From: Sporomusa sp. KB1
GTDB taxonomy: Bacteria > Bacillota > Negativicutes > Sporomusales > Sporomusaceae
Length of the DNA: 64,000 bases
Assembly (NCBI RefSeq): GCF_007830295.1
Contig: NZ_VLKC01000002.1
Span: 716,940 to 780,939 of the forward strand
Reading direction: 5' to 3'
Part shown: positions 1,804 through 62,757 of the stretch, one piece after another
Numbering within the stretch: position 1 is the stretch's first letter
How the letters are laid out: every line of letters begins with the position of its first letter
Position numbers and translations under genes: made by a program
The notes under the pieces: model-generated
What the model was told of the DNA's origin: nothing
Databases searched by the model: none
The model's input: the letters and a program-made list of their open reading frames with translations, nothing else

Positions 1804-4023
1804 TTACAGGTCGACCTGCGCCGACAAAACAACCGTGCGGGGCGTGGATACGTACAACTGGTCGCCGCGGGCTACCTGCCAATAATCCTTGTCCGTCAGA
1901 TTGTAGCACATCAGGCTGAATACGGCAGGTACGCTGTCAATTTTTGTTTTGTATTTCAGACCAAGGTCAAAGGTCGTGTAGCCGGGAACCGCAAGTTTTT
2001 GATAATTAATCGTCGATTCGCCGGTATACCGAACCCGTCCGACCATACTAAATCGACTGTCAGCCTGATATTCCACAGCGGCGACAGCGTTCCATTTGGC
2101 CCGTCCGCTGACGTCATAACCGTCATACTGGCCGCCTTTTGTTTTTTCCTGGGTGGCAATCAGCCGTGTGATACCTCCCATTAGCGTCCATTTGTCGCCC
2201 AGGCTGCCGCTGGCCGCCAACTCCACGCCTTTATGCCGTTCCCGGCCGTCCTGGATCAAATAGTATTTAGAACTACTTGTATCAGCAACTTCAATATTAT
2301 TTGCCTGTTCAATATCAAAGAGACTGAGTGTCGTAAGAACACCGGCATGTTCATATTTAATCCCAATTTCATCTTGCTTGGCCTTGGCGGGCGCTAAAAT
2401 ATCACCGGCATTTACATAGCTGCTGCCTACGACAGTACCTTTGTTAAAGTTTTCTGAGTGGCTGGCATATAAGGAAATATTAGTTGCCGGTTTATATACA
2501 ATGCCATAGGTCGGACAAAAAGCATTACTGTCAACACTGGCAGTTTTGGTTCCGGTTTTCGCCGTATAAGAATCCACAGTGGCAAAATGCTTGTGTGCCC
2601 CCAGCAGGACCTCCCATTTCTGATATTCGATATTGTCGGCCAGCGACCAACCCCAGAAACGCTGTTTTTCCGTCAGTCCGGTCGAGTAATCGGTGTTCGG
2701 CAGAAGCGTTTGAGTTATGCCGCTATAAAGATTGCCTGTACCGATGAGGTCATTTACCGTAACTTTGGCGGATTCACGGTTGCGCCAGGATTTGTCGACA
2801 GCCAGCGTCACATTGTGTGTGACCGCGCCACCGGCGATTTTCCCCTGAGTCCCCAGTTGGGCATAATAGGTATTCATCGGCGTGCCGCCGTTGGTAACGT
2901 ACAGGTCATAATCGCCTGCGTTGTTCTTAACCGTAAAAGCGCTGTTGGTGGCACTCACATTTTTCGTCAGGGTATTGCGGTTGAGACCGCCGTTAAAGAA
3001 CACTTTCCAGTCTTTACTGACCTTCTGCTCGTGGTTCAGCGCGAAGATCCAGCCGCGGGACGCTTTGACCATGCCGTCGAAGCCGTAATCGTCGCTGGCA
3101 TCAGGCGTGCTCGGCAGACTGGTGACGGAACTGCCGAATTTGAACCAGCGCTGGCCGCCTTGAATCTCAAGCTCCCGGTAGCCGGTTAATATATTGGTCG
3201 TACTGTTCTCATCCCGGTGGTCAATATTGGCGAAAATTCCCCGCGCCTTTATATTTTCACCGTGAATCGAGGTTTCGCCGTTTACCATTTCAGTGTTGAT
3301 ACGTACGCCCCAGGCGTTGTTCCGGCCAAACCGACGGGCGATGTCCATATATTCGCCGAATGAGCCATAACCGGAAAAAGTCTGCGTATAGCGCGTCAGC
3401 GGCTGTTCCGGCGCTTTTTTAGATACAAAATTGACCAGACCGCCGGCGGTATCGGATTCATATTGTGCCCCCGTGCCGCTTATTCCGCTGTTCGGTCCGG
3501 AGATTAAATCAATATGGTCGATCATAAAGGTAGGCGCATTGAATTGCGTAAACATACCCGGTATGCCGTTCACATAGGAACTCGTTCCGTTGGCACGAAA
3601 TCCCCGGAAAGTAAAATCATTGTGCAGCGCACTGCCTGACGCCTGAATCGAGGGACTGTTGGACAGGATGCTGTCAAGCGGCTGGCTGGCCGCGCCGAAG
3701 GTTTCGATGGTTTTACTGGTCAGCGTAGTTTGCGTAAACGGCGTATCCATAACATTTTTCTCACCTAAAAAACCCACGCTGCCATTTTGGCCGACAAAGC
3801 CGGTATCGGAATCCTCTTTCTTATCTTTCTTGCCTTCAACGACAACTTTCTCCAGTTTGTATGCAGGAGAATCTGATTTTGCCGCCGGTTCTGAAGTTTC
3901 CGCCGCATCCGCCGCCGCTTCTTCCGCATATGCGTAGGTGGAATTAAAGCCCAAAGCGACCGCACAGGCGATTGCCGCTGCCAGCAAATTTCTTTTGTTT
4001 TTTCTAGTAAATTTTCTCTCCAT
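1804..4023 (-). CDS. TonB-dependent outer-membrane receptor
   Basis: 739-residue outer-membrane receptor, usual length for siderophore/cobalamin receptors. A signal peptide (about residues 1-33, ending TYAYA) is followed by a low-complexity Ala/Glu/Lys linker with a possible TonB-box zone, a plug domain (about 90-210, with SIQASG, FRGFRANG and the DLISGPNSGISG element) and a 22-strand-type barrel. The last strand ends SAQVDL rather than in the usual aromatic residue. ATG follows a GAGGTGG site. The plug resembles the siderophore-receptor (FhuA-like) class, but the gene is behind a cobalamin riboswitch and ahead of a NikA-like importer. A corrinoid or cobalt/nickel chelate is therefore more likely than iron. 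The protein also shows that the cell has an outer membrane. Confidence 0.9.
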   Translation of the reverse strand: MERKFTRKNKRNLLAAAIACAVALGFNSTYAYAEEAAADAAETSEPAAKSDSPAYKLEKVVVEGKKDKKEDSDTGFVGQNGSVGFLGEKNVMDTPFTQTTLTSKTIETFGAASQPLDSILSNSPSIQASGSALHNDFTFRGFRANGTSSYVNGIPGMFTQFNAPTFMIDHIDLISGPNSGISGTGAQYESDTAGGLVNFVSKKAPEQPLTRYTQTFSGYGSFGEYMDIARRFGRNNAWGVRINTEMVNGETSIHGENIKARGIFANIDHRDENSTTNILTGYRELEIQGGQRWFKFGSSVTSLPSTPDASDDYGFDGMVKASRGWIFALNHEQKVSKDWKVFFNGGLNRNTLTKNVSATNSAFTVKNNAGDYDLYVTNGGTPMNTYYAQLGTQGKIAGGAVTHNVTLAVDKSWRNRESAKVTVNDLIGTGNLYSGITQTLLPNTDYSTGLTEKQRFWGWSLADNIEYQKWEVLLGAHKHFATVDSYTAKTGTKTASVDSNAFCPTYGIVYKPATNISLYASHSENFNKGTVVGSSYVNAGDILAPAKAKQDEIGIKYEHAGVLTTLSLFDIEQANNIEVADTSSSKYYLIQDGRERHKGVELAASGSLGDKWTLMGGITRLIATQEKTKGGQYDGYDVSGRAKWNAVAAVEYQADSRFSMVGRVRYTGESTINYQKLAVPGYTTFDLGLKYKTKIDSVPAVFSLMCYNLTDKDYWQVARGDQLYVSTPRTVVLSAQVDL

Positions 4024-4068
4024 AGCGCCACCTCAAAATAGTAATAAATTTATCATTGCTCATGGCCA

Positions 4069-4168
4069 GTGAACTCGTTTCAGCATAGCTGAAACATTGG
4101 GGATTCAGGTGGAGAGTCTACTCCACCTGAATTAACGCCGCCTGTAGAGGCGGGAGCCTTGACTCGCG
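4069..4168 (+). repeat. Three-hairpin dispersed repeat, copy 1
   Basis: About 100 bp with three internal inverted repeats: GTTTCAGC/GCTGAAAC with a 3-nt loop, a 12-bp stem ATTCAGGTGGAG/CTCCACCTGAAT with a 6-nt loop, and CCGCC/GGCGG with a 6-nt loop. A near-identical copy lies in the opposite orientation at 21250-21348. It sits in the leader between the riboswitch terminator and the TonB gene. No coding potential seen. Confidence 0.8.
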
Positions 4169-4285: not shown

Positions 4286-4399
4286 GAAAGCGGTAAAGTT
4301 ATTCTTATCAAAAATCCCGGCACTATCTACGCCGGGAAAAATAAGGCACAACTCAGGTGCGCAAATCCCCTCCCCATCGCTCGTGGGTAAAAACGGTGA

Positions 4400-4575
4400 T
4401 TGACAGACAGGCAGTTCTCCTGGCTCTAGTTCATTGCTTATCCAAGCCTTCCCAAGAATACATATCTCAGTGGCATACCTCGGATTCGCTCCCTATTACA
4501 GTGGCGGGACCGCGCCGGCATCACACCGGTCTTCCCTATTAAGCCCTTGCGGGCACCTATCTCAACACGATTCAA
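4400..4575 (-). promoter_or_regulatory. Cobalamin riboswitch upstream of the TonB receptor
   Basis: Read on the minus strand it has the conserved elements in order: GGTGCC...AATAGGGAA, the GCGGTCCCGCCACTGTAA core, TATGCCACTG, GGGAAGGC and the closing GAGCCAGGAGAACTGCC (B12-box side). A terminator follows at 4255-4285. It should switch off the TonB receptor and the downstream importer when adenosylcobalamin is plentiful. Confidence 0.93.
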
Positions 4576-9465: not shown

Positions 9466-9483
9466 CTTGTCCATGAAGGATGG

Positions 9484-9655
9484 TTTGCGGTATAAGGCAG
9501 GTCTCCTGGCTCCCAGTTCATTAACTCTTACGCCTTCCCCTTGACGAGTGGCCGTGTAAGATCTCCCTGGTACAGTGGTGGGCCCGCGCCTATGTATAGT
9601 CTCCCCATACTCAGACTTCCCTATTCTCCCCCTAGGGGGCACCTTATCCGTAAAA
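9484..9655 (-). promoter_or_regulatory. Cobalamin riboswitch upstream of the cobT pair
   Basis: Minus strand carries GGTGCCCCC...AATAGGGAAG, GCGGGCCCACCACTGTACC, GGGGAAGGCG and GAGCCAGGAGACCTGCC in order, the standard B12 aptamer. Terminator at 9434-9465 forms the expression platform. Confidence 0.93.
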
Positions 9656-9718
9656 TATGTGTAATTTTATGGTCATTATAACAGACGGCCTTGCTACCGT
9701 CAATGGTGAAATCCAGTT

Positions 9719-39471: not shown

Positions 39472-40263
39472 TTAGATACTATAAGCAAACGGCACTTCAA
39501 CGTCTGAGAAAAATTCAGTGTAAATTTTCTTACGGATTTTTACAAATTCAAAACTGTTCCGGTCACGCGGACGGGGCAAATCAACAGGAATAATAGATTT
39601 CGTCGTAGCAGGCAGCTTAGACATCACTACAACCCGGTCTCCCAAAAAGATGGCTTCGTCGATATCATGGGTAACCAACAAAATTGTAGTCTTTTCTGCT
39701 CCCCATATACGGATAATCTCCTGTTGCATCGTAATACGCGTCATAGCATCCAGGGCACCAAACGGTTCATCAAGCAATAAAACCTGTGGACGGTTTACTA
39801 ATGCCCTTGCTATACTAACCCGCTGTTGCATACCGCCAGATAATTGATACGGATAGGCCTTTGCAAACCCGGCTAAGCCCACCAGTTCCAGGTGTTCCTG
39901 AACAATACGCTGCTTTTCCTCATTGCTACGCCCGTTGCCCAACCCAAAAAGCACATTCTCTTCGATCGTTAACCAAGGATATAGCCGTGCCTCCTGGAAA
40001 ACCATCCCTCTGTTTACTCCTGGTCCCTCAATCAAATCCTCACCAAGACGTATCTCTCCAGAGAAACCTCGTTCCAGACCGACAACAAGCCTGAGAAGTG
40101 TACTTTTACCGCAGCCGCTGGGACCTATGATGCTGATAAACTCCCCCGGCGCTACCGTTAAATTAATATCTTTCAAAACATCCACCGATTTACCCGCGAT
40201 TTGGAATGTTTTATTCAAATTATCAATCGTAAGCGTTTGTGGTATTACCGACGCTAGGCTCAT
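39472..40263 (-). CDS. Sulfonate-type ABC transporter ATPase (SsuB-like)
   Basis: 263 residues from MSLASVIPQ, which follows AGGGAG and lies after the permease stop; an upstream start would overlap the permease. Walker A GPSGCGKST, signature LSGGMQQRVSIARAL, Walker B VLLLDEPFGALD, His switch LVTHDIDEAIFLGD. Energises import with the adjacent permease and binding protein. Confidence 0.9.
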   Translation of the reverse strand: MSLASVIPQTLTIDNLNKTFQIAGKSVDVLKDINLTVAPGEFISIIGPSGCGKSTLLRLVVGLERGFSGEIRLGEDLIEGPGVNRGMVFQEARLYPWLTIEENVLFGLGNGRSNEEKQRIVQEHLELVGLAGFAKAYPYQLSGGMQQRVSIARALVNRPQVLLLDEPFGALDAMTRITMQQEIIRIWGAEKTTILLVTHDIDEAIFLGDRVVVMSKLPATTKSIIPVDLPRPRDRNSFEFVKIRKKIYTEFFSDVEVPFAYSI

Positions 40264-40277
40264 CTCTCTCACTCCCT

Positions 40278-41051
40278 TTAGTGAATGTTTACATTCCATC
40301 TTAGCAAACGCTTTTCGAGCAATTGTAACAGTTGTTCAATAATGATTCCGGTAAATCCAATGGAAAGTACGCCAACCAATACAACATCAATTTGTGATAA
40401 TTCCCTGGCATACATAATCATATAACCAATACCCGAGGCTGCTGCAATCAGCTCAGCTGCCACTACGCTGCGCCACGCCACGTCAATGCCGACTCGAACA
40501 CCAGTAAAGATTGCTGGCAAGGCTGCAGGCAAAATCACCTTGGTTAACAGTGTCATATGATCCTTTTCCAAGATAGTAGCTACTTCCAGGTATTTTTTAT
40601 CGACATTTCTAATTCCCTCTACTACACTGACCAATACCGTCCAGAAACTCCCAATAGCGATAACGGTAATCTTTGAGCCTTCATCAATTCCCATCCATAA
40701 AATAAGAACCGGAATCCAGGCAATGACCGGAATAGGTCTAAGCACCCCAAAAATCAGGCTAACTGCTATCCGCATTTTCTTTGATAACGCTACCTGAACA
40801 CCCACTAGAACGCCAAGCCCTGCCCCAATAATAAATCCTTCAGCAACCCGCAGAATACTAACGCCTAAATTAGCAAGCAATTCTCCGGAAGCCAGTAGTT
40901 CAACCAACATAACGGCAATGACGGAAGGCCTTGGCAAAAGGTTGGCCCGAATTAAACCAAGCTGACTGGCCGCCTCCCATACAGCCAGGAGTAAGACAGG
41001 TGCCACTAATGCAAGATAATTTTCTTTCAACCATAAAGCAATTTTTTCCAT
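40278..41051 (-). CDS. Sulfonate-type ABC transporter permease (SsuC-like)
   Basis: 257 residues, six predicted membrane helices, EAA loop near LTKVILPAALPAIFTGVRVG. First gene after the terminator leader at 41095-41162 and its promoter. ATG behind GGGGAGGAG. Confidence 0.9.
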   Translation of the reverse strand: MEKIALWLKENYLALVAPVLLLAVWEAASQLGLIRANLLPRPSVIAVMLVELLASGELLANLGVSILRVAEGFIIGAGLGVLVGVQVALSKKMRIAVSLIFGVLRPIPVIAWIPVLILWMGIDEGSKITVIAIGSFWTVLVSVVEGIRNVDKKYLEVATILEKDHMTLLTKVILPAALPAIFTGVRVGIDVAWRSVVAAELIAAASGIGYMIMYARELSQIDVVLVGVLSIGFTGIIIEQLLQLLEKRLLRWNVNIH

Positions 41052-41094: not shown

Positions 41095-41162
41095 TAAAAA
41101 AAATAAAGGCCAAGAATTCCAAAGAATTCTTAGCCTTCAGTTCTCTGATCAGCCAATATATT
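41095..41162 (-). promoter_or_regulatory. Conserved attenuator leader B (importer/ligase/Kor operon)
   Basis: Starts right after a promoter (TTGACA 41192-41197, 17 bp, TATACT 41169-41174). Motif at 41133-41154 reads GGCUGAUCAG, AGAA, CUGAAGGC in the RNA; its last bases form the 5' arm of a strong terminator (41105-41137, AAGGC..GAAUUC / GAAUUC..GCCUU, then a T-rich run). Near-identical motifs precede the other two operons of the island (46635-46657, 50207-50228). Confidence 0.7.
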
Positions 41163-41168
41163 AGGTTT

Positions 41169-41197
41169 AGTATATAGTACCTTTAAATTGCTGTCAA
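41169..41197 (-). promoter_or_regulatory. Sigma-A promoter of the importer/ligase/Kor operon
   Basis: TTGACA, 17-bp spacer, TATACT, followed about 7 bp later by the conserved leader. Confidence 0.75.
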
Positions 41198-41210
41198 CAT
41201 AAATTAATTA

Positions 41211-41438
41211 TTATTTGATAAGATAAGGGACCTCTTTCAATGTAATTGCTTTATTCGGACACACGAATGAGCAAATATCACAATACCAGCAGTCATCACG
41301 GTATTTCATAAATGGTACATCATCGTCTCCTTTTCTCAAAACATCACGCGGACAGTAGTCAATGCACAAACCGCAGGAACTACACTTCTCACCATTAAAA
41401 TCTAGCCATTGATACTGTTTGCTTTCTTTGCAGCTCAT
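41211..41438 (-). CDS. 4Fe-4S ferredoxin partner of the AprA-like flavoprotein
   Basis: 75 residues with two cluster motifs, CSSCGLCIDYCP and CWYCDICSFVCP. Its ATG shares one base with the stop of the flavoprotein gene (TAATG). It resembles the ferredoxin half of APS reductase beta (AprB) without the C-terminal tail that wraps AprA. Presumably carries electrons to or from the flavoprotein. Confidence 0.88.
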   Translation of the reverse strand: MSCKESKQYQWLDFNGEKCSSCGLCIDYCPRDVLRKGDDDVPFMKYRDDCWYCDICSFVCPNKAITLKEVPYLIK

Positions 41439-43288
41439 TACTTTACGCCCCCTTTTCCTGGAACAAACCGGGCCGGAATTTCAAAGCCCTCTCTTTGAAC
41501 CTTTTCTTCAATCCAGGGATCTCTTACCTTATTAGGCGGGTGTTTATAGCCAGTACCAATGCTAAGATTTAAAGCTGGATATTCATAATCAAGTCTGGCC
41601 GGGAATGTCCATTGAGGGGCAGGCACTTCTTGTTGAGAGGCAATCATGCTTCCGGACGCTCTATCCTTATGTAACACTACCCATTTGTTGTCCCAGTCCG
41701 GATCACGCTGAGGATATGCTAAACGGTAATGACCTAGTCCCCATCTGCTTTCTGTCCGGTACAATGATGCTCTGGCCGCCATTTCCGCACAATCGATAAT
41801 GCTTTGTATCTCGGTTACTTTGATTAAATCATGATAATCATTAACCTTTATGCGCGGCAAATCCTCTTTGCGAATTCTTTCCGTCCACCATAGCAGCTTA
41901 TTCATCAGTGGATCACTCTTCGGGGGCGTTAGATATTGACTTATCTTGGAACGAATCTTATATTCAACTTGTTCTACCGGTATACCCTCTGCCAGCTCTA
42001 AAGGCCGTACAACTTCTTTGATAAGTTGATTTATGTCGACGTCGAGCTGCGGCGCCTTATGCGTTTTCGCAAACTCTGCCGCACGCTCTCCGGCAATACT
42101 ACCAAACACAAACGCCCCTGTAAGGTACTGATGAGGAACTGCCGCGCAATCGCCAGCAGCATACAAGCCAGGCACGTTGGTTTCTGTATGCTTATTTATT
42201 TGTATTCCAGACATACTGTGCCCGCTGCATAGCGTTATTTCCTCCATACCCTGCTCAACTGAATCCCATCGTCTATAGTTTTCATCCCGTTGAATATGAA
42301 AAAGTCCCCGCGATGTACGCTCGGTTCCCCATAGGATTTTTTCCAGACCTTGAATAGTCTCTTCAGGAAGATGGTCCATTTTAAGATACACAGGTCCTCT
42401 TCCCTCCTGGAATTCCCGCCAAACAGCCAAGAACATATCTCCTGACCAGTAACCATGAGTCCAGTACTTCTCACCCAGTGCGTTTACACCATAACCGCCT
42501 CTTGGTATAACCACATAGCCGCAAGCAGGCCCATTGTAGTCTTTCATCAATAGGTTAGTCTGGAAACATTCCAGATTTATTAAGTTAGCGCCTGCATGGT
42601 ACGCCATGGCAAATCCCTCTCCGGTATTACCCGGGAACTCGTATAACCCACTGAGATAACCATCTCTTGGCAGACCAAACTTACCAACAGCACCTGCCGT
42701 CAAGATAACGGTAGGTGTATTTATTACATAAAAATCACCTGTGCGGATATTAAAAGCAAGCAGCGCCGACACCCGGCCATCGGTAGTTAAGAAACGTACG
42801 GCAGGCGTAAAGTCAAGTACCTGCACCCCTAGATCCCGTACCCTTTTAGCCAAAGCCCGTTTAATGTCTTCTCCATCCATAGCAAGATATAACGGATGTT
42901 CGGTCGGATGGAGAAAGCTAGCTTTATAATTGCCATTCTCATCAATCGGAAACAAATCACCAGGCTCGCGGTTAGTATATTCTTCAAGATCCTTAATCAC
43001 CTGAAGGCTTTTTTCGCCAAGTACATAGGCGCATTCTTGATCTAATATCCCTTCGGTTACCTTGGTAAGTGCTTCCACTACATTTTCGGGTGTGCCATAT
43101 CCGGGAACGGCCACAATATTTAGAGCGTCCATTCCTCTACCAATGGCACCTGAAGTTTCTATGGGCCCCTTATCTAAGATAATGACTTTGGCGTCAGGAT
43201 TTTTGCTTTTAGCTTTTATCGCCGCTATTGTACCTGCACTGCCACCTCCAATAATGCTTACGTCAGCTGAAATATAATGTACTGCCAT
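41438..43288 (-). CDS. AprA-like FAD-dependent oxidoreductase (fumarate reductase/APS reductase alpha family)
   Basis: 616 residues, length close to AprA. FAD dinucleotide motif SIIGGGSAGTIAA (about 11-23), LDKGPIETSGAIGRGMDALN, GTERTSRGLFHIQRDE, GLYAAGDCAAVPHQYLTGAFVFGSIAGERAA, and the C-terminal helical domain AARASLYRTESRWGLGHYR seen in AprA. Coupled to a small two-cluster ferredoxin. Similar pairs occur beside sulfonate importers in other bacteria, but I know of no proven reaction. I infer an electron-transfer step in sulfonate or sulfite handling rather than dissimilatory APS reduction, as no sat or dsr genes are present. Confidence 0.85.
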   Translation of the reverse strand: MAVHYISADVSIIGGGSAGTIAAIKAKSKNPDAKVIILDKGPIETSGAIGRGMDALNIVAVPGYGTPENVVEALTKVTEGILDQECAYVLGEKSLQVIKDLEEYTNREPGDLFPIDENGNYKASFLHPTEHPLYLAMDGEDIKRALAKRVRDLGVQVLDFTPAVRFLTTDGRVSALLAFNIRTGDFYVINTPTVILTAGAVGKFGLPRDGYLSGLYEFPGNTGEGFAMAYHAGANLINLECFQTNLLMKDYNGPACGYVVIPRGGYGVNALGEKYWTHGYWSGDMFLAVWREFQEGRGPVYLKMDHLPEETIQGLEKILWGTERTSRGLFHIQRDENYRRWDSVEQGMEEITLCSGHSMSGIQINKHTETNVPGLYAAGDCAAVPHQYLTGAFVFGSIAGERAAEFAKTHKAPQLDVDINQLIKEVVRPLELAEGIPVEQVEYKIRSKISQYLTPPKSDPLMNKLLWWTERIRKEDLPRIKVNDYHDLIKVTEIQSIIDCAEMAARASLYRTESRWGLGHYRLAYPQRDPDWDNKWVVLHKDRASGSMIASQQEVPAPQWTFPARLDYEYPALNLSIGTGYKHPPNKVRDPWIEEKVQREGFEIPARFVPGKGGVK

Positions 43289-43310
43289 TCCTTATTCCTC
43301 CTCATGTTCC

Positions 43311-44084
43311 CTATATGACATACTCTAGAGAAGTCTCAGTGACTAGTGAAAACTCCCTAAAAACACGATCACGAATTTTGTTAAAATCATAGTCTGTCCT
43401 ATTGCGGGGTTTAGGTAACTGGACGTTAACAATAGCATTCACTTTACCTGGATTTGGCGTCATGATTACCACCCTATCACCAAGGTAAATGGCCTCGTCA
43501 ATATCATGAGTTACAAAAATCACCGTCGGACTATTCTTCTTGCAGATGCTGGTAAGTTCGAGCTGGAGCTGCATCCTGGTAAAGGCATCCAGCGCTCCGA
43601 AGGGTTCATCCAGTAACAGAATCTTAGGCTCCAGTACAAGGGCGCGGGCTATTGCCACCCTTTGTTTCATTCCTCCGGATAACTGATGCGGATATACGTT
43701 GGCAAAGTTGCAAAGATTTACTAAGTTTAAATACTCAAGTGCCTTCTCACGGGCCGCTTTAGCCGGTACCTTTCTTAAATCCAAGCCAAACTGAACATTC
43801 TCAACAACTGTTCGCCAGGGAAATAACGCATAATCTTGAAAAACAATAGCGCGATCACTACCGGGCGCGGTTATCCTCTGACCATCAATCTCCACCCAGC
43901 CGGAGCTTGCCTGTTCGAGACCGGCAATAATCTTCAGCAATGTGCTTTTGCCACAACCAGATGGCCCCAGCAAACACACAAATTCCTGATCATTTACGCT
44001 GAGACTTACGTCATTCAGGGCAATAATCTCTCTGTCTTTTTTAAGATGAAATGATTTTCGAACATCGTGCACCTGGATTGCCAT
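43311..44084 (-). CDS. Sulfonate-type ABC transporter ATPase
   Basis: 257 residues. Walker A GPSGCGKST, signature LSGGMKQRVAIARAL, Walker B ILLLDEPFGALD, FVTHDIDEAIYLGD. Usual SsuB/TauB architecture. Lies 3 bp after the permease gene and 22 bp before the AprA-like gene. Confidence 0.9.
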   Translation of the reverse strand: MAIQVHDVRKSFHLKKDREIIALNDVSLSVNDQEFVCLLGPSGCGKSTLLKIIAGLEQASSGWVEIDGQRITAPGSDRAIVFQDYALFPWRTVVENVQFGLDLRKVPAKAAREKALEYLNLVNLCNFANVYPHQLSGGMKQRVAIARALVLEPKILLLDEPFGALDAFTRMQLQLELTSICKKNSPTVIFVTHDIDEAIYLGDRVVIMTPNPGKVNAIVNVQLPKPRNRTDYDFNKIRDRVFREFSLVTETSLEYVI

Positions 44085-44087
44085 GGT

Positions 44088-44882
44088 CTAGCCCCCAATT
44101 TCTTCACGCCATTTTAACAAGCTTTTCTCAATTATTTTGATTAGTTCAAAACATACTGTACCCATTGCGCCGATGGTAATCATCCCGATAATGGTCTCCG
44201 AATATGCCATTAACGTGTAGGAAGTCCAGGTATAATAACCAATTCCGTATTTCCCGGAAATCATTTCAGCGGCAATTACACTCATCCATGATACTCCGAT
44301 TCCAATAGTAAAGCCTGTAAATATATTCGGGATAATTCCCGGCAAGTAAACATACTGTAAAAGCTGTAACTTAGTAGCATTCATGCTCTTGGCCGCGATA
44401 ATTAGTGATGGATTGACATTAGCTACTCCAGCAATTGTATTAACAAGAATGGGAAAAAAGGCTCCCAGGAAAGTGATAAAGATGATACTCCCTTCCACTG
44501 AAGGGAAGATTAATATCGCTACCGGTATCCAGGAAATCTGGGGAATGGGGCGCAGCATATCAAAGATAGACAACAGCAAATCTTCGGTAACCCTTGATAG
44601 TCCAATAATTAGCCCCAAGACTACTGCAAGTGGCAGAGCTGCTAAACTACCAGCAAGAATTCTCCCGAAACTCACCAGTATGTGGTAGTAATATACCTGC
44701 TTTTGCAAAACAGCAATGAAGGTTTCCCCAACCTCTACCGGGGAGGGTAGATTGCCAAACATAAGCGGCGACATGACATTATTACCAACTAAAACCTGCC
44801 ATGTGCCAACAAAAACAATTATAGCTATTATCTTTCGGATTACCCTGGTAATTCTATATCGAAAAGAAGATAAATCCGACAT
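44088..44882 (-). CDS. Sulfonate-type ABC transporter permease
   Basis: 264 residues, six predicted membrane helices with EAA loop near LQLLQYVYLPGIIPNIFTGFTIG. ATG behind GAGGTGGCGG, 10 bp after the binding-protein gene. Confidence 0.9.
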   Translation of the reverse strand: MSDLSSFRYRITRVIRKIIAIIVFVGTWQVLVGNNVMSPLMFGNLPSPVEVGETFIAVLQKQVYYYHILVSFGRILAGSLAALPLAVVLGLIIGLSRVTEDLLLSIFDMLRPIPQISWIPVAILIFPSVEGSIIFITFLGAFFPILVNTIAGVANVNPSLIIAAKSMNATKLQLLQYVYLPGIIPNIFTGFTIGIGVSWMSVIAAEMISGKYGIGYYTWTSYTLMAYSETIIGMITIGAMGTVCFELIKIIEKSLLKWREEIGG

Positions 44883-44892
44883 ACCGCCACCT

Positions 44893-46008
44893 CTATTTCA
44901 ACGGAATCCAATCACCTTTCAGCTCAGTTTCAGTAGGATATTTGTAGCCTAACTCCTTAAATGCAGCCTTTAAATACTGATCGTCAACAAACTTGTTCAA
45001 ATCAATACTCTTGAGTTTTTCAAGCTTTTGCAGAAAATCCCGGCTACCCTCTAATGTCGTTATGTCTTTCGAATAGATTGCCGCATCAAATCTGACATTC
45101 TGAACAATCTTTTTGGTTACATCAAGCGGATATTGGGATTCCTCCTGGAAGATCCTCGCCGCTTCCTCAGGGTTTTCTCTAATAAACTTATGCGACTCAA
45201 TCAACGCCTTTAAAAAGGCAACAGCATATTCCCGATTGTTTTCCACCCAGGTGCGATCAGCCACAACACCATCTAAATAATCCACATTAGTCTCACTGCC
45301 ATCAAGCAAAACATCACCAATATCTTTTGTTTGAATTAGGCTGGGATAGGGCTCCCAGGTAGCATGGGCAATAATTTTGTTTTGTTCAATATTACTCATG
45401 CCCACAGTAACGTCCTGGTTAACAATTGTCACATCATTCGTTAAGCCATATTTATCCAGGGCCACTAGCAGCATCCTGTGAGCGCTAGATCCAAGAATTG
45501 TCGAAATCGTTTTCCCTTTCAAATCTTCCATCTTTATGTTGCTGCCTTTGGGAGTTAATATGGCCTGATTCTTCCCTCCAGCACCTTTTCCGTCGAAAGC
45601 AAGAAATACGGATTTGTAATTGCGGGATGTCTGTCCTTGCTCGCCGTTAATTAGTATGGGCATGTCCCCCATGAGTGCTAGTTGCAGCTTCCCCGCAATC
45701 ATATTATTTGTTAGCGGGGGACCGGAAGGTGAATTAAACCATTCAATCTCAAAAACCTTATCCGGATACTTTTCCTGCAAGTACTTTTCGTAGAGTTTTT
45801 TGTTTTTGATAATTAGCGCACCCCAGGTTTGAGCTGTTGGTGCTTGATAGCCGATTCCTATTTTCACAACTTCCTTTTGGGATTTCGGCGTCTCTGCCGC
45901 ACTTCCGGATGTACTGCTCTGGTTCTTCCCCGAGCACCCTGCGATTACCAAGCTGGCTGTAAGCAGTACAGCAACCAAGTAGCCAACAAACGTTTTTTTC
46001 CCTAACAC
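44893..46008 (-). CDS. Sulfonate-type ABC substrate-binding lipoprotein
   Basis: 371 residues, GTG start (VLGKKTFVGY) behind AAGGAGG. Lipobox VIAGC near residue 24. SsuA/TauA-type fold: NNMIAGKLQLALMGDMPILIN, ISTILGSSAHRMLLVALDKYG, HATWEPYPSLIQTKD. The SSAH and TWEP motifs are shared with the protein at 38373, so the two importers probably take related compounds. The insertion GAGGKNQAILTPKG suggests a different ligand pocket. Confidence 0.87.
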   Translation of the reverse strand: MLGKKTFVGYLVAVLLTASLVIAGCSGKNQSSTSGSAAETPKSQKEVVKIGIGYQAPTAQTWGALIIKNKKLYEKYLQEKYPDKVFEIEWFNSPSGPPLTNNMIAGKLQLALMGDMPILINGEQGQTSRNYKSVFLAFDGKGAGGKNQAILTPKGSNIKMEDLKGKTISTILGSSAHRMLLVALDKYGLTNDVTIVNQDVTVGMSNIEQNKIIAHATWEPYPSLIQTKDIGDVLLDGSETNVDYLDGVVADRTWVENNREYAVAFLKALIESHKFIRENPEEAARIFQEESQYPLDVTKKIVQNVRFDAAIYSKDITTLEGSRDFLQKLEKLKSIDLNKFVDDQYLKAAFKELGYKYPTETELKGDWIPLK

Positions 46009-46082
46009 TAAAATTCCTCCTTACATTCTTAGCATTACACCGTCTCTACGACTCTCTTCACCCCCTTTAGCGCAATATAAAA

Positions 46083-46120
46083 AAGAACAGACCGCTACCA
46101 AACGGTAGTTATCTGTTCTT
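46083..46120 (-). terminator. Terminator between the MpsC-like gene and the importer
   Basis: AAGAACAG..ACTACC/GGTAG..CTGTTCTT hairpin then TTTTTTATAT on the minus strand. It could reduce rather than abolish read-through into the binding-protein gene. Confidence 0.7.
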
Positions 46121-46171
46121 TGTTAAGAAGAATAACTATTTCATTAAAGGATTTTTGCCTTTATCAGGCTT

Positions 46172-46528
46172 TTAATCCAGATAAATTGTCCAACATGATA
46201 AATTTTGTTCAAGTATCCAACTGGGAAAAAAATACTTAATCTTTCGGTCAATAACCTGATAAATTATCTTCTCAATATCATTAACACATTGCATGATATA
46301 CACTCTACGATAATCAATAACTTTATCCAAATGGCCTGACTCAATGATTAACTCTTCGGCTTTGGTTAAAAAACCATGCTGCACACAAATAAGTATATTA
46401 TCAGCAATACGTACCTCAGTTTTACTTGGTCCTTTCCCAATTCTCTCCTTGGCAAACTTGGCTATTTCTCTTTCCAGTAGTTGCTCTTGCTGATTAATTG
46501 TCAGGCCAAGCTGTTTTACGGTATTCAA
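46172..46528 (-). CDS. MpsC/DUF2294-like small protein
   Basis: 118 residues from a TTG (LNTVKQLG) 6 nt after AGAGGTG; a GTG three codons upstream lies inside that site. Resembles the DUF2294/MpsC family (LEREIAKFAKERIGKGPSKTEVRIADNILI is typical, with VQHGFLTKAEELI). Function of the family is not settled; some members are linked to sodium/membrane-potential systems and sporulation. First gene after leader C, so expressed with the sulfonate importer and AprA-like pair. Confidence 0.7.
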   Translation of the reverse strand: MNTVKQLGLTINQQEQLLEREIAKFAKERIGKGPSKTEVRIADNILICVQHGFLTKAEELIIESGHLDKVIDYRRVYIMQCVNDIEKIIYQVIDRKIKYFFPSWILEQNLSCWTIYLD

Positions 46529-46579
46529 TATGTACACCTCTCAATTCCCTAAGCCTTGTCGATAGAGTAGAATGGTATA

Positions 46580-46670
46580 CCTGACAAAAAATAAAAGGCC
46601 GGAAGAGTCGGTAAAATATCTACCAACTGCTTCGGCCTTCAGTTTTTCTAATCAGCCTAGCTAAAATATT
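46580..46670 (-). promoter_or_regulatory. Conserved attenuator leader C (importer/AprA-like operon)
   Basis: Promoter TTGACG (46700-46705), 17 bp, TACTAT (46677-46682); the -35 overlaps the stop codon of the upstream activase gene. Motif at 46635-46657: GGCUGAUUAG, AAAAA, CUGAAGGC. Terminator 46595-46639 (AAGGCCG..AAG / CUUCGGCCUU) then TTATTTTTT. Confidence 0.7.
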
Positions 46671-46701
46671 GTATTAATAGTATCATACTCTATCGATGGC
46701 G

Positions 46702-47640
46702 TCAATAGGTAACTTTGGATAAGCAGGGATTATCAAGAGCACTTTTTACAGTGTTCAACCGCTCAAATTGTTCTTCACGCAAGGTTAAATTACCCAGAGG
46801 ATATTCTTTTCCCAAATACTCGTATTTTTGCTGCCCTAAACGGTGATAGGGCAACAATTCATAACCAACATTGGGCCTTCCCTTAATAAAGTTAATTATG
46901 GCTGTAATATCTTCCTCTGAATCATTAAATCCAGGAATTACAGGTGTTCTGACCAATATGGGCAGGTTAGGAAAAGCCGCTGTCAGTCTGACAAAATTTT
47001 CAAGGATGATATCGTTAGCTAGCCGGGTTTGCTCACAGTGTCTACCTGAATCCAGGCACTTTATATCATAAATAAGCGTATTTAAATAGTGGCACGCCTT
47101 CTCCAGCGTCTGCCAGTCAGCATAACCGCTAGTTTCCATTGTGGTATTTATCCGCCTGCGTTTGGCCGCCTGTAAAAGTTCAACCGCAAAATCAGGCTGC
47201 ATTAGTGGTTCCCCGCCACTGAGAGTCAGGCCCCCGCCTGACCGGGAGAAAAAAACGTTATCTTGTTCTACCACCTCTAAAATATCGTCAATACTCATCA
47301 ATTGGCCGAAAGTATGTAAGGCCGTTGTAGGACACGCCCCTGCGCAAGAAAAGCACTGTTTGCAAACATCCCGGAGAACTACTGGCTTATCAGCTTCTCC
47401 CTGCCGTAATGCGTTATGGGGGCAGGCGTTGAGACATCTGCCACAGGCAGCGATCCCAATACACTTGTTTTGGTTGTAAGCCAGCTCCGGCTTGCTCGCC
47501 TGGGATTCCGGATTACTGCACCAGCGGCACCGCAGCGGACAACCTTTTAAAAATACAATGGTTCTTATTCCCGGGCCATCATGCACCGAAAATTGCTGGA
47601 TATTAAAGACATACCCTGACCGTTTGTGATTGGGTTCCAT
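46702..47640 (-). CDS. Glycyl-radical enzyme activase (radical SAM)
   Basis: 312 residues. Radical-SAM cluster motif CPLRCRWC (Cys 34, 38, 41), two ferredoxin-type clusters (CIGIAACGRCLNACP and CKQCFSCAGACP) inserted at about 60-110, GGGLTLSGGEPLMQP, and TTMETSGYADW. The extra clusters are usual for activases of non-PFL glycyl radical enzymes. Generates the glycyl radical on the enzyme encoded 12 bp upstream. Confidence 0.94.
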   Translation of the reverse strand: MEPNHKRSGYVFNIQQFSVHDGPGIRTIVFLKGCPLRCRWCSNPESQASKPELAYNQNKCIGIAACGRCLNACPHNALRQGEADKPVVLRDVCKQCFSCAGACPTTALHTFGQLMSIDDILEVVEQDNVFFSRSGGGLTLSGGEPLMQPDFAVELLQAAKRRRINTTMETSGYADWQTLEKACHYLNTLIYDIKCLDSGRHCEQTRLANDIILENFVRLTAAFPNLPILVRTPVIPGFNDSEEDITAIINFIKGRPNVGYELLPYHRLGQQKYEYLGKEYPLGNLTLREEQFERLNTVKSALDNPCLSKVTY

Positions 47641-47652
47641 GGTAGTAGCCTC

Positions 47653-50133
47653 CTACAAACTATGCTCGGTTCTGGCAATGACATCGTTCTGCAAATCAGG
47701 CGAAAGATCTATGAAATACGCACTATATCCGGCCACCCGGACAAGCAAATTCCGGTATTTATCAGGCTCCTTTTGGGCTGCCAGCAAGGTCTCTTTGTTG
47801 ATAATATTAAACTGCAAATGCCAGAGCTTTAAATCACACCAGCTGCGGATGAGGGAAGTGATTTTTCTTGTTCCTGCTTCACCTTGCACACATGAAGGGC
47901 TTAACTTTATGTTTAATAGTCTTGATGCCCGTTCCTGAAAACCCAAATTTTTTGAATTAGCATTTGACATGAGCACGGCAGTCGGCCCTTTCACGTCTGC
48001 GCCATGCGAAGCAGAAGATCCGTCAGAAAGAGCCGCACCTGCTTTTCTACCATTGGCGGTAGCACCAACAACCTTACCGAAGGGAACGTGAGAAGTTACC
48101 GGTACATACCTTACATCAAGGCTCACACCTATTGTCTTGGAGTATTTGTGCGTAAATTGAAGGGCCGCTAAATCTATATTTTTTGCTATAGAATCGGCAT
48201 AAGGATCATTGTTCCCATACCGGGGAGCATTTAACAGCAATTGTCTTACAGCTTCCTGCCCCTGAAAATCATTAGCTAGTACAACTATCAACTCATCAAT
48301 AGTTATCTGCTTCTCTTCATATACGAACTTTTTAATGGCAGCCAATGAATCGACTACCGTAGCATAGCCGATAATGTCAAAATAACCCAAGTCGATTCCG
48401 CCAGCAATACTTGCTGAATGAAGATCTTTATAATCCTTTAGGCATTGTTCATGCAACACAGATCCCAGCGGAGCAGCAAAGTGCTTTTCCCGTAAATTAT
48501 TCGCGATATACTGTTGCTTGAAAGCTTGCTTAAGCAAATAGGTTTGCTGTCCAATATAGGCCTGCCAAAATTCTTCCCAGGTTGCAAAACTTCTTGGATT
48601 CCCTGTTTCAATAGTTAATAGTTCATCATGGTAGATTTTCATTCTTCCATTGTACAAAACCATTTCTAAGGCAGCGGCTATATTAACATACGCGCAGGGA
48701 CTGGTATATGTATCCCGGTTGGGCATTCTGACCTCGGTGCAGCCTGAGACAGCATAGGTATTTGCCTCTTTAAAACTAGCGCCTTTAGCAACCAGTAAGG
48801 GAATAACCTCTTCATCATTGATCAGTTTAGGAAAGCCTGAGCCCTCCTTTATCGTCTCAGCTATCTCATATAGATATCGTTCCGGTGAACGTGCATGAAC
48901 CCTGGCGGCTAAATCAGGATAGTTGATAGGAAATTCCCGTTTCGATTCTAAAAATAAATACGTTAATTCATTGGTAGCATCCTCACCATTCTCATCCTGC
49001 CCACCAATGGTAACAGCTTCCCAATGCGCATAGGCTTCATTAAAGCAGGCACCAGCCGGGCTAACATATAAATCAATATACTGAGCCATTCCTACCCACA
49101 TACATTCTAAAAGCTCTTTGGCCTTTTCCTGATCGACTCGCCCCGCTTGTAAATCAGCTTTGTAAAACGGATATAAGTACTGATCCATTCTTCCATTAGA
49201 GATAGTAGCACCGGTCTTTTGCTCCAGTCGGGAAAACATTTGCGTAAACCATTGTGCCTGAGCAGCTTCATAAAAAGTACGGGCAGGATTTTCTGGCACC
49301 CAATCACATATTCTGGCAATCTCCTCTAACTCGCGCTTTCTGTTTACATCAATTTCATTTGCAGCAAGTTCGGCGGCCAGTCTTGCGTGCCGCTTGGCCC
49401 ATACAACAATAGCCTCTGATACAAGGATGACAGCCGCAAGGAAAGGAGCCTTCTCAAGCGCGTCCTTGGGATCAAACAGGTCAAGAGCCTCTAGTTGGCT
49501 TTGGGCCTCCTGTTTTATGGCCTTAAAGCCCTTTTTCAATACTTTCTCAAAATCATGAACCCATTGTAGTGCTGAGCGCATAGTGGCCGTTTCATTAACA
49601 ATAAATCTTGATTTCGACACATTTACCGGATCGTAAGTTACCCTTAAAACATCTTCAGGCAGTGATGTGGCAAGGTCTTCATAAAACGTTTTCCCTTTCC
49701 AATAGGGTGCAATCTCCTGTTTGATATAGGCCATATCTTCATCGGCAATATAGAAAGGAGACTCTATCCGGTTAGGCAATTCGTCTGCCATTTGTTCCAG
49801 AAAGCAGCCATCCAGTTCTGGATAAATGACTCCATATCTACCCTGGCAACCTGCCCGGCCTGCCAAAAGCTGTTGATCGTCGATATATACCGTAATGTTT
49901 TCAGCAATGTGCTGAAGAGCCTTAGCCCACCGCAAGATTAACGGTTGCCCCTCAGTTGTCTTAAAAGATTCGGTAAAATACTTTGCTCTTTCGATATCGA
50001 TTTGGGGGCGTTCTCCTTTAAATGAATTAAAAATGTTATATGGTCTTGGTCTTTCACAAGCTTTGTATTTACCTGTTAATTCTTCAGTTACTCGCTGCTC
50101 CTGCGGTGATAAAACAACGGCAGACAAACCCAT
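47653..50133 (-). CDS. Glycyl radical enzyme, probable sulfonate C-S lyase
   Basis: 826 residues, PFL-like family. Thiyl radical loop [14 protein letters not shown] (Cys465, Glu467) and glycyl loop [10 protein letters not shown] (Gly802). From memory, isethionate sulfite-lyase uses Arg189/Gln193, Trp374, Cys468/Glu470, Arg678 and Gly805. Here Arg186/Gln190 (RSALQ), Trp371, Cys465/Glu467, Arg675 and Gly802 occupy the same places with a constant shift of three. The two phenylalanines I recall in that pocket (677, 682) correspond to Val674 and Val679. I infer a sulfonate lyase releasing sulfite, with a substrate other than or larger than isethionate (dihydroxypropanesulfonate is one option). No acetaldehyde-handling gene is adjacent. 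Activase gene follows; leader A precedes. Confidence 0.85.
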
Positions 50134-50160
50134 AATTAACCCTCCCTATTTTACGCGTAC

Positions 50161-50277
50161 TGAAAAATAAAAAAGGCTAAGTGATGGTTTCTGTTACCAA
50201 CACTTAGCCTTCAGATTTCTGATCAGCCGTTTACTGTATATTTACGTGTAGCCTCTGGATTTCCAGTTAGCTTTATT
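50161..50277 (-). promoter_or_regulatory. Conserved attenuator leader A (glycyl radical enzyme operon)
   Basis: Promoter TTGACG (50307-50312), 17 bp, TAAAAT (50284-50289). Motif at 50207-50228: GGCUGAUCAG, AAAU, CUGAAGGC. Terminator 50173-50211 (AAGGCUAAGUG / CACUUAGCCUU) followed by TTTTTTATTTTT. The 5' portion, absent in leaders B and C, has a CUGGAAAUCCAG hairpin. Confidence 0.7.
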
Positions 50278-50384
50278 TTGCTTATTTTATCATTGACAAT
50301 TCTATTCGTCAATACCTAATTCAGGACATACACAGATCAAACTACATCTTTTGCATAGTATGAGATTAGCTAGCCGGCAAAATT

Positions 50385-53476: not shown

Positions 53477-53546
53477 GACTCCTACCGTTAGTATGGTAGG
53501 AGTCATCACCTGGTTAACCAGGATTCGAGCGAACTCCATCGCTCAT
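53477..53546 (-). promoter_or_regulatory. Fluoride riboswitch (crcB motif)
   Basis: Minus strand: GAGCGATGGAGTTCGCTC (P1/P2 with the conserved GAUGG and UUCGC), AATCCTGG..CCAGG, then the conserved TGATGACTCCTAC. The last bases are shared with the terminator stem GACTCCTACC/GGTAGGAGTC (53477-53486 with 53495-53504) followed by TTTGCTTTTTT. Controls DUF190 and the crcB remnant. Confidence 0.92.
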
Positions 53547-53566
53547 TATAATTACTATAATTTTAC

Positions 53567-62397: not shown

Positions 62398-62451
62398 ATA
62401 TTTTCATAAAATCCTGTCCTCCTGGTACTACCTCTGGCGCGGAGGTAAATA

Positions 62452-62645
62452 ACAGCCAAAACAGGCAGGTCTCCTGGCTTACGGATCCAAAGAACACCCC
62501 TGCCTTCCCGCTTGCTGGTGGCATAATAAAAGTATTCTTCCCCGCTTACAGTGGCGCGACCGCGTCGTTTAAGGATTTAGGCAATCCTTCCGAACTTCCC
62601 TATTCTCCTCTTAGCTTACTAAGAGGCACCTGTATGGTGGCAAAT
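62452..62645 (-). promoter_or_regulatory. Cobalamin riboswitch upstream of the third cobT
   Basis: Minus strand order: GGTGCCTC..GAATAGGGAAG, GACGCGGTCGCGCCACTGTAA, TATGCCACC, GGGAAGGC and AAGCCAGGAGACCTGCC. Complete class-I-type B12 aptamer. Confidence 0.93.
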
Positions 62646-62757
62646 TATTAAGTTTTGATTTCTGTTATACTCATTCTACAGTTATGACCATTCTCCTGTC
62701 AGCCTATGTAGGTTCGCAAGATGTTGAAACATTTAGTCAAAAACATAACTTCCCCGC

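Follow-up and report, generated by a model that had tools for sequence, protein, structure and literature searches.

In the BglG/LicT/SacY systems a CAT_RBD protein turns operons on by stabilising an RNA hairpin with the RAT consensus, which shares sequence with the foot of a terminator. S-box and T-box leaders likewise use termination to control many sulfur or amino-acid operons, and ANTAR-target leaders carry two hairpins with hexanucleotide loops of a set pattern. We analysed a stretch of 64,000 nucleotides (nt) from Sporomusa sp. KB1 (NZ_VLKC01000002.1, positions 716,940 to 780,939 of the forward strand; hereafter the window) in which three leaders share an RNA element of about 22 nt, with a loop variable in length and sequence, that runs into a strong terminator. 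As in protein-dependent terminator/antiterminator attenuators, two mutually exclusive folds of this element covary among its homologues. It differs from the BglG/LicT/SacY targets in sequence and size, in the protein proposed to act on it (DUF2292, PF10055) and in serving sulfur rather than sugar genes (no search was aimed at CAT_RBD proteins); from S-box and T-box leaders in being far smaller, without an Rfam match and with no tRNA or S-adenosylmethionine aptamer features seen; and from ANTAR targets in being one short hairpin with a variable loop. We consider it reasonably likely that DUF2292 binds the element as a protein-dependent site of antitermination. As a further hypothesis, the cysteine synthase CysK may hold the tailed type of DUF2292 protein until O-acetylserine accumulates.

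An unnamed sulfonate attenuator of bacilli, which the accessible part of PMC2965389 describes as a terminator-linked element ahead of an ABC operon for sulfonates and of an unknown gene, with neither partner nor mechanism given there, may be a first glimpse of the same element. The OscA/YezD proteins (PF10055; NF033785) belong to the same small family and are tied to sulfur starvation in the available passages of PMC2996968 and PMC10433965, which contain no RNA role; many of the proteins found here differ from them in having two modules and a C-terminal G-D/E-G-I tail. Proteins at the loci studied here score above the Pfam cut-off for DUF2292, and ten of them reached 24.3-53.7 bits against the OscA equivalog NF033785, i.e. 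less than its cut-off of 85. Within the portion of the literature available to us, mostly without subscription papers, there is no RNA role for DUF2292 and no report of this element, except possibly the attenuator of PMC2965389.

All three leaders lie on the minus strand of the window and have the same order: a promoter-like site whose spacer measures 17 nt, the element, and a strong terminator whose 5' arm is opened by the end bases of the element. Their common layout is N-GCUGA-[UYAG]-loop-[CURA]-AGGC, leading directly into the terminator. The pattern GGCTGATYAG-N{3,8}-CTGAAGGC matches at 50228-50207, 46657-46635 and 41154-41133, and was not found in 100 shuffles. Element 1 (antiterminator hairpin site and terminator, 50168-50228, upstream of a glycyl radical enzyme) scored 55.4 bits with our model R1 and 58.1 bits with model R2; the corresponding values were 51 and 49.4 bits for element 2 (46590-46657, upstream of MpsC) and 55.5 and 55.2 bits for element 3 (41101-41154, upstream of an ABC permease). 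Folding of the three leaders is strong (z -5.0 to -5.7). The promoter-like sites are TTGACG-17-TAAAAT (50284-50312), TTGACG-17-TACTAT (46677-46705) and TTGACA-17-TATACT (41169-41197), matching at 10, 9 and 11 of 12 positions respectively; the third is the top match in the window, where sigma-70-type promoter matches overall are not enriched (16 found, 21.1 in shuffles). An earlier sequence-only reading of the window had described the shared motif, the promoter ahead of each leader and the lack of a fourth copy, and each of these observations was reproduced, R2 giving the three copies and a 20.7-bit antisense echo of element 1 only. It had also recognised no known RNA pattern in the motif, in agreement with our searches: with Rfam 15 no family reached its gathering score for the element in the window, and ten copies from this genome, searched with their flanks at E up to 5, gave two matches, both under cut-off. 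The Rfam matches in the window lie elsewhere and comprise three cobalamin riboswitches (4393-4575, 9479-9661, 62447-62648 (-)) and one fluoride riboswitch (53490-53552 (-)).

The exact pattern occurs ten times in the Sporomusa sp. KB1 genome, three times in the window and seven times at 2.887-2.968 Mb, and eight stretches of this genome (182 kb of 6.06 Mb) contain 24 R2 matches of at least 30 bits. A pattern scan of public genomes matched at least 114 stretches, many of them within-gene matches without a terminator; 83 copies were kept, the cluster of this genome included, seven loci and one match having been discarded by eye beforehand. Among the matches listed, true copies with terminators come from Sporomusa, Propionispora, Pelosinus, Heliobacterium, Pelotomaculum, Peribacillus, Oceanobacillus and deltaproteobacterial metagenome-assembled genomes. 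R1, with 21 candidates scored per genome, matched 82 of 250 Negativicutes genomes at E <= 0.001 and 68 at 2e-7 (strong-element genomes), and R2 matched 143 of 299 Bacillales genomes at 0.001 and 80 at 1e-8. Since echoes of true copies reach up to 37 bits, weak genome matches can be bare terminators, which is why we report the counts at several cut-offs. The homologue search proposed in the sequence-only reading thus yielded homologues with covariation beside sulfur genes, and its suggestion that the element coordinates the whole island proved too narrow, because many operons of this genome and other bacterial groups carry it.

Comparison of the homologues makes the RNA part of our reading, i.e. 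a shared attenuator with two exclusive covarying folds, solid. One alignment, A2, holds 61 of the 83 kept copies; another, A6, was left uncleaned, and among its 137 rows some are identical and at least two are antisense echoes (L149, 37.1 bits; L136, 33.3 bits). Both the UYAG/CURA helix and the terminator covary, with pairing in 96.6% of cells and 138 both-side changes (35.8 in shuffles), and a further comparison gave 96.8% and 233 (68.1 in shuffles) for the terminator, in line with the original remark that the terminator arms of the three leaders differ in sequence yet still pair. In the alternative fold the GCU at positions 2 to 4 pairs with the GGC doubling as the terminator foot. This antiterminator hairpin is formed in 99.1% of cases among 126 distinct rows, with 50 both-side changes against 5.8 in shuffles, and in 99.4% on alignment A7, with 54 against 14.7, the number of pair types on A7 not exceeding that of the shuffles (268/500). 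Among 137 R1 matches, U31 is present in six rows, all with A at position 2 and from three backgrounds, while two other rows with A at position 2 retain C; U4 varies to C only and C3 to U only. The GCU/GGC pairs are absent from model R1. Of the two exclusive folds in the sequence-only reading, the principle therefore stood and the partner did not: it had paired GGCU with the 3' arm of the terminator, a pairing that shows no covariation (82.1% paired, 81.8% in shuffles). Computed folding energies are -2.7 to -5.4 kcal/mol for the hairpin and -22.4 to -26.7 kcal/mol for the terminator, so something must stabilise the hairpin, and because GCUGA and AAGGC are constant while the loop and stem letters vary, the element looks like a protein site.

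The protein family that tracks the element is DUF2292, genes of which first turned up adjoining cysK. PF10055 is present in 88 of the 250 Negativicutes genomes, and with R1, a model that predates any consideration of DUF2292, it was found in 67 of the 68 strong-element genomes and in 21 of the remaining 182; the sole strong-element genome without it (G143) is 58% complete. At E <= 0.001 the count was 69 of 82 matched genomes. The core sulfur gene cysE, by comparison, is above cut-off in 137 of the 250 genomes, of which at least 69 therefore have no strong element, and so does not track it. In mixed groups, covered by 48 loci from the public scan, DUF2292 was found in 18/18 genomes having the element with its terminator and in 4/29 with a chance pattern match, at least four of the 18 looking identical to genomes of the Negativicutes set (same DUF2292 positions). 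In one bacillus family it was present in all eight element genomes checked by eye, which were chosen from 13 printed match sequences (21 genomes matched), against a base rate of 39/147. Among the 299 Bacillales genomes, DUF2292 accompanied R2 matches in 80/80 genomes at 1e-8, 95/96 at 2e-7, 104/108 at 1e-6 and 119/143 at 1e-3, and occurred in 55 of the 219 genomes without a 1e-8 match.

The two are also often neighbours. In Bacillales, 54 of the 84 genomes with both positions listed have an element on the strand of the DUF2292 gene that starts less than 200 nt beyond it, and in the bacillus family the element follows the DUF2292 gene in 15 of 19 loci (11 found by scan and four weak R1 matches, of 16.7-23 bits, that read as the element). 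Fifteen of 30 Negativicutes DUF2292 loci (L200-L229) have an R1 match of at least 29 bits within the fetched stretch, and the order pyridoxal phosphate (PLP) enzyme, DUF2292, element, cysK was seen in L218 and L227 among the matches listed. In Sporomusa sp. KB1 itself, a tandem DUF2292 protein (C1:3037775-3038104) is followed by one gene and then a 40.5-bit element and cysK, and a second tandem protein lies at L373:8183-8536. Among the genomes seen, most Negativicutes, the deltaproteobacteria and Heliobacterium have an A/B pair or tandem form, and Bacillales a single-domain form. In Oceanobacillus (L095), elements at 3659-3724 and 4039-4093 flank a DUF2292 gene (3848-4036) on both sides, an arrangement suggesting autoregulation.

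The ends of the DUF2292 proteins may point to CysK. According to the passages available from PMC5562914, the CysE tail inserts in the CysK active site, with its Ile critical, and micromolar O-acetylserine dissociates the complex; CymR and CdiA are named as other CysK partners in the part of PMC12895370 available. In these sources CysE, CdiA-CT, EGL-9 and CymR share the docking of a C-terminal Ile peptide in CysK. E. coli CysE ends in YGDGI, and 45 of 76 DUF2292 proteins have the CysE-like C-terminus G-D/E-G-I, one per locus in 45 of 60 loci (some genomes having been fetched twice). The 15 tail-less loci belong to bacilli, control genomes, Pelotomaculum and two genomes of one Negativicutes family, and in the bacillus family the tail is found in 0/19 proteins. 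None of 16 Negativicutes CysE proteins, 12 of them from strong-element genomes, ends in G-x-G-I, and two end in Ile. The CysK of this genome resembles solved cysteine synthases and retains TSGNTG. Our hypothesis is that CysK senses for the tailed DUF2292 proteins; this would differ from the described partners in that the tail belongs to a putative RNA-binding protein, with docking predicted from sequence.

Several observations weigh against our overall reading. R2 was partly trained on copies picked beside DUF2292 genes, so the Bacillales test is not fully independent (at least four of its genomes, G251, G297, G311 and G369, had also been examined earlier), and the co-occurrence counts and Fisher values ignore ancestry. 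DUF2292 occurs without a strong element in the 21/182 and 55/219 genomes given above and in four control genomes. Examination of 16 of the 21 Negativicutes genomes concerned revealed a diverged element in six (G011, G062, G089, G117, G169 and G241), carrying the compensatory pairs A2-U30, C7-G26 and A10-U23, and no convincing element within the fetched DUF2292 stretch in the other ten; five matches came from 231 kb of control loci scanned in the same way, and G122 has a 29.6-bit match (L206). Conversely, 13 of 82 Negativicutes and 24 of 143 Bacillales genomes matched at the loose cut-off lack DUF2292, matches that we read as mostly bare terminators, and G575 (the one of 96 at E <= 2e-7) and four of 108 at 1e-6 lack it unaccounted for. 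The Bacillales and Pelotomaculum proteins seen have no tail. The predicted DUF2292 structures are of low confidence (mean predicted local distance difference test scores of 56 and 67) and match no solved fold, Foldseek giving no hit at E <= 0.001, and no solved relative was found; an Sm-like fold was considered and rejected, the LSm6 match (E 0.88) being at chance level.

In the mechanism that we propose, the nascent leader would fold G2 C3 U4 ... [UYAG-loop-CURA] A G G C into a hairpin of seven pairs plus a G-A mismatch and one unpaired A, and so draw AGGC away from the foot of the terminator stem. Being much weaker than the terminator, the hairpin alone would leave the operons off by default. 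DUF2292 would bind the constant GCUGA/AAGGC hairpin and keep the terminator open, so that sulfur-acquisition operons are read. In the A/B type, the B protein, which ends in G-D/E-G-I, would be held by CysK while sulfide is plentiful, and displaced when sulfide shortage lets O-acetylserine accumulate. That DUF2292 works the switch is probable; its role and its RNA binding are deduced from the association, and the direction of control is a deduction too. The sequence-only reading had proposed a riboswitch or a protein-dependent antiterminator, and what backs the latter is the association with DUF2292. The former would be a very small riboswitch, whose GCUGA/AAGGC hairpin binds a sulfur-starvation metabolite such as O-acetylserine, with DUF2292 merely a co-regulated sulfur gene. 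Its scattered, portable distribution, the tandem copies in some leaders (L022, L111, L128) and the copies without a linked DUF2292 gene would suit this; nevertheless we think it unlikely, as the element co-occurs almost completely with one protein family whereas cysE does not track it, and about 22 nt with a variable loop is, to our knowledge, below the size of known riboswitch aptamers.

An equally small chance attaches to some other, unlinked protein binding the element, with DUF2292 in the same regulon and, in Bacillales, merely the first gene before the attenuator. DUF2292 has no known RNA-binding fold and is present without the element, and the profiles tested were PF10057, PF10055 and cysE only; however, a mere target should not outdo core sulfur genes in tracking the element across several groups. 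Nor is DUF2292 in general a leader peptide, because a DUF2292 gene does not immediately precede most copies. It is less likely still that DUF2292 binds the element and promotes termination, i.e. represses under plentiful sulfur. The control direction does rest on inference, and the UYAG/CURA helix, lying directly against the terminator stem, could form a stack with it, yet stabilising a covarying hairpin built from the terminator's own foot opposes termination. Chromate, a sulfur-starvation stress, induces oscA-sbp, and inactivation of oscA made P. corrugata chromate-sensitive, as described in the available part of PMC2996968, which also speaks against a repressor. MpsC/DUF2294, encoded behind element 2, is a single-copy gene in this genome, lies behind an element in G049 too, and all 15 MpsC genomes of the 250 belong to the strong-element set; it is nonetheless lacking in 53 of the 68 strong-element genomes, including G034, G083 and G139 of the same genus with 18-21 matches, which refutes it as general regulator and makes this explanation exceedingly improbable.

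Most of the identified targets of the element are sulfur genes. By profile, first genes encode PAPS reductase, a Cys/Met PLP enzyme, a nitrite/sulfite reductase domain and PALP (cysteine synthase family), and further an SDF symporter, solute-binding proteins, an Rrf2 regulator, a CitMHS transporter, FMN reductase (SsuE-like), a TauE exporter, a B12-binding protein and a NifH-like protein; G002 and G033, two of the genomes with a single match, have at this place a gene that we read as cysK. First genes without a clear sulfur role are GNAT, a pyridoxamine-oxidase-like protein, Fe-S proteins, a radical SAM protein and a chromate transporter. From these we infer shortage of sulfur or cysteine as the common denominator. 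The Rrf2 regulator behind an element in one Bacillales genome (L337:1652-2122 (+)) hints at a layered circuit. In Sporomusa sp. KB1, about 95 kb (C1:2880001-2975000; L126-L130) hold many nitrogenase-component-1-like proteins, below NCBIfam cut-offs where scanned, interleaved with transporters and element copies, and many proteins that we interpret as NMT1-type transporters, methyltransferases and PLP enzymes; the cluster looks like an organosulfur-scavenging island. Tandem element pairs in one leader were seen in L022 (3737/3877), L111 (1624/1754, 5957/6087) and L128 (7376/7508, 11707/11838). Terminator-less copies near a ribosome-binding site or start codon (L128 11838, i.e. C1:2929838; L201, L203, L226 and L008) may be a translational form acting on translation starts.

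In the window, all genes concerned are on the minus strand. Element 1 precedes a glycyl radical enzyme of (2S)-3-sulfopropanediol dehydratase type (47653-50133; NF048011, 1500 bits, cut-off 1000) and a radical SAM protein with Fe-S domains by Pfam (46702-47640), likely its activating enzyme from its position. The target of element 2 is MpsC/DUF2294 (46172-46537), the genome's only PF10057 match; an MpsC gene directly behind the element was seen in a second genus as well (G049, C1:304608-304922). A terminator-like hairpin computed at 46106-46091, 3' of MpsC, means that the downstream ABC operon need not share its transcript. Behind the hairpin are encoded, by profile search, an NMT1-type substrate-binding protein (44893-46008), an ABC permease (44088-44882), an ABC ATPase (43311-44084), a flavin adenine dinucleotide flavoprotein of the fumarate reductase/AprA-like kind (41438-43288) and a ferredoxin-like 4Fe-4S protein (41211-41438). 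Element 3 is followed by an ABC permease (40278-41051) and an ABC ATPase (39472-40299). Of the three adjacent operons in the sequence-only reading, the leaders therefore hold, and co-transcription of the middle ABC operon with MpsC is uncertain.

In its fullest form our reading is that DUF2292 proteins would be tiny RNA-binding antiterminators whose CysE-like tail lets CysK sense O-acetylserine on their behalf, a single 22-nt hairpin switching at least twenty operons. The tailed form would belong to Negativicutes, deltaproteobacteria and Heliobacterium and a tail-less form to Bacillales, together making a new class of gene control; this we put forward tentatively, with somewhat less than even confidence. 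If true, it would assign a molecular function to the widespread and uncharacterised DUF2292/YezD/OscA family, enlarge the set of RNA elements by one that a single genome has in at least 24 copies, and account for the way in which many anaerobes and bacilli switch on their sulfonate, organosulfur and cysteine genes. Through the CysE-like tail, transcription antitermination would then be tied to a metabolic enzyme in a concrete and quickly testable way.

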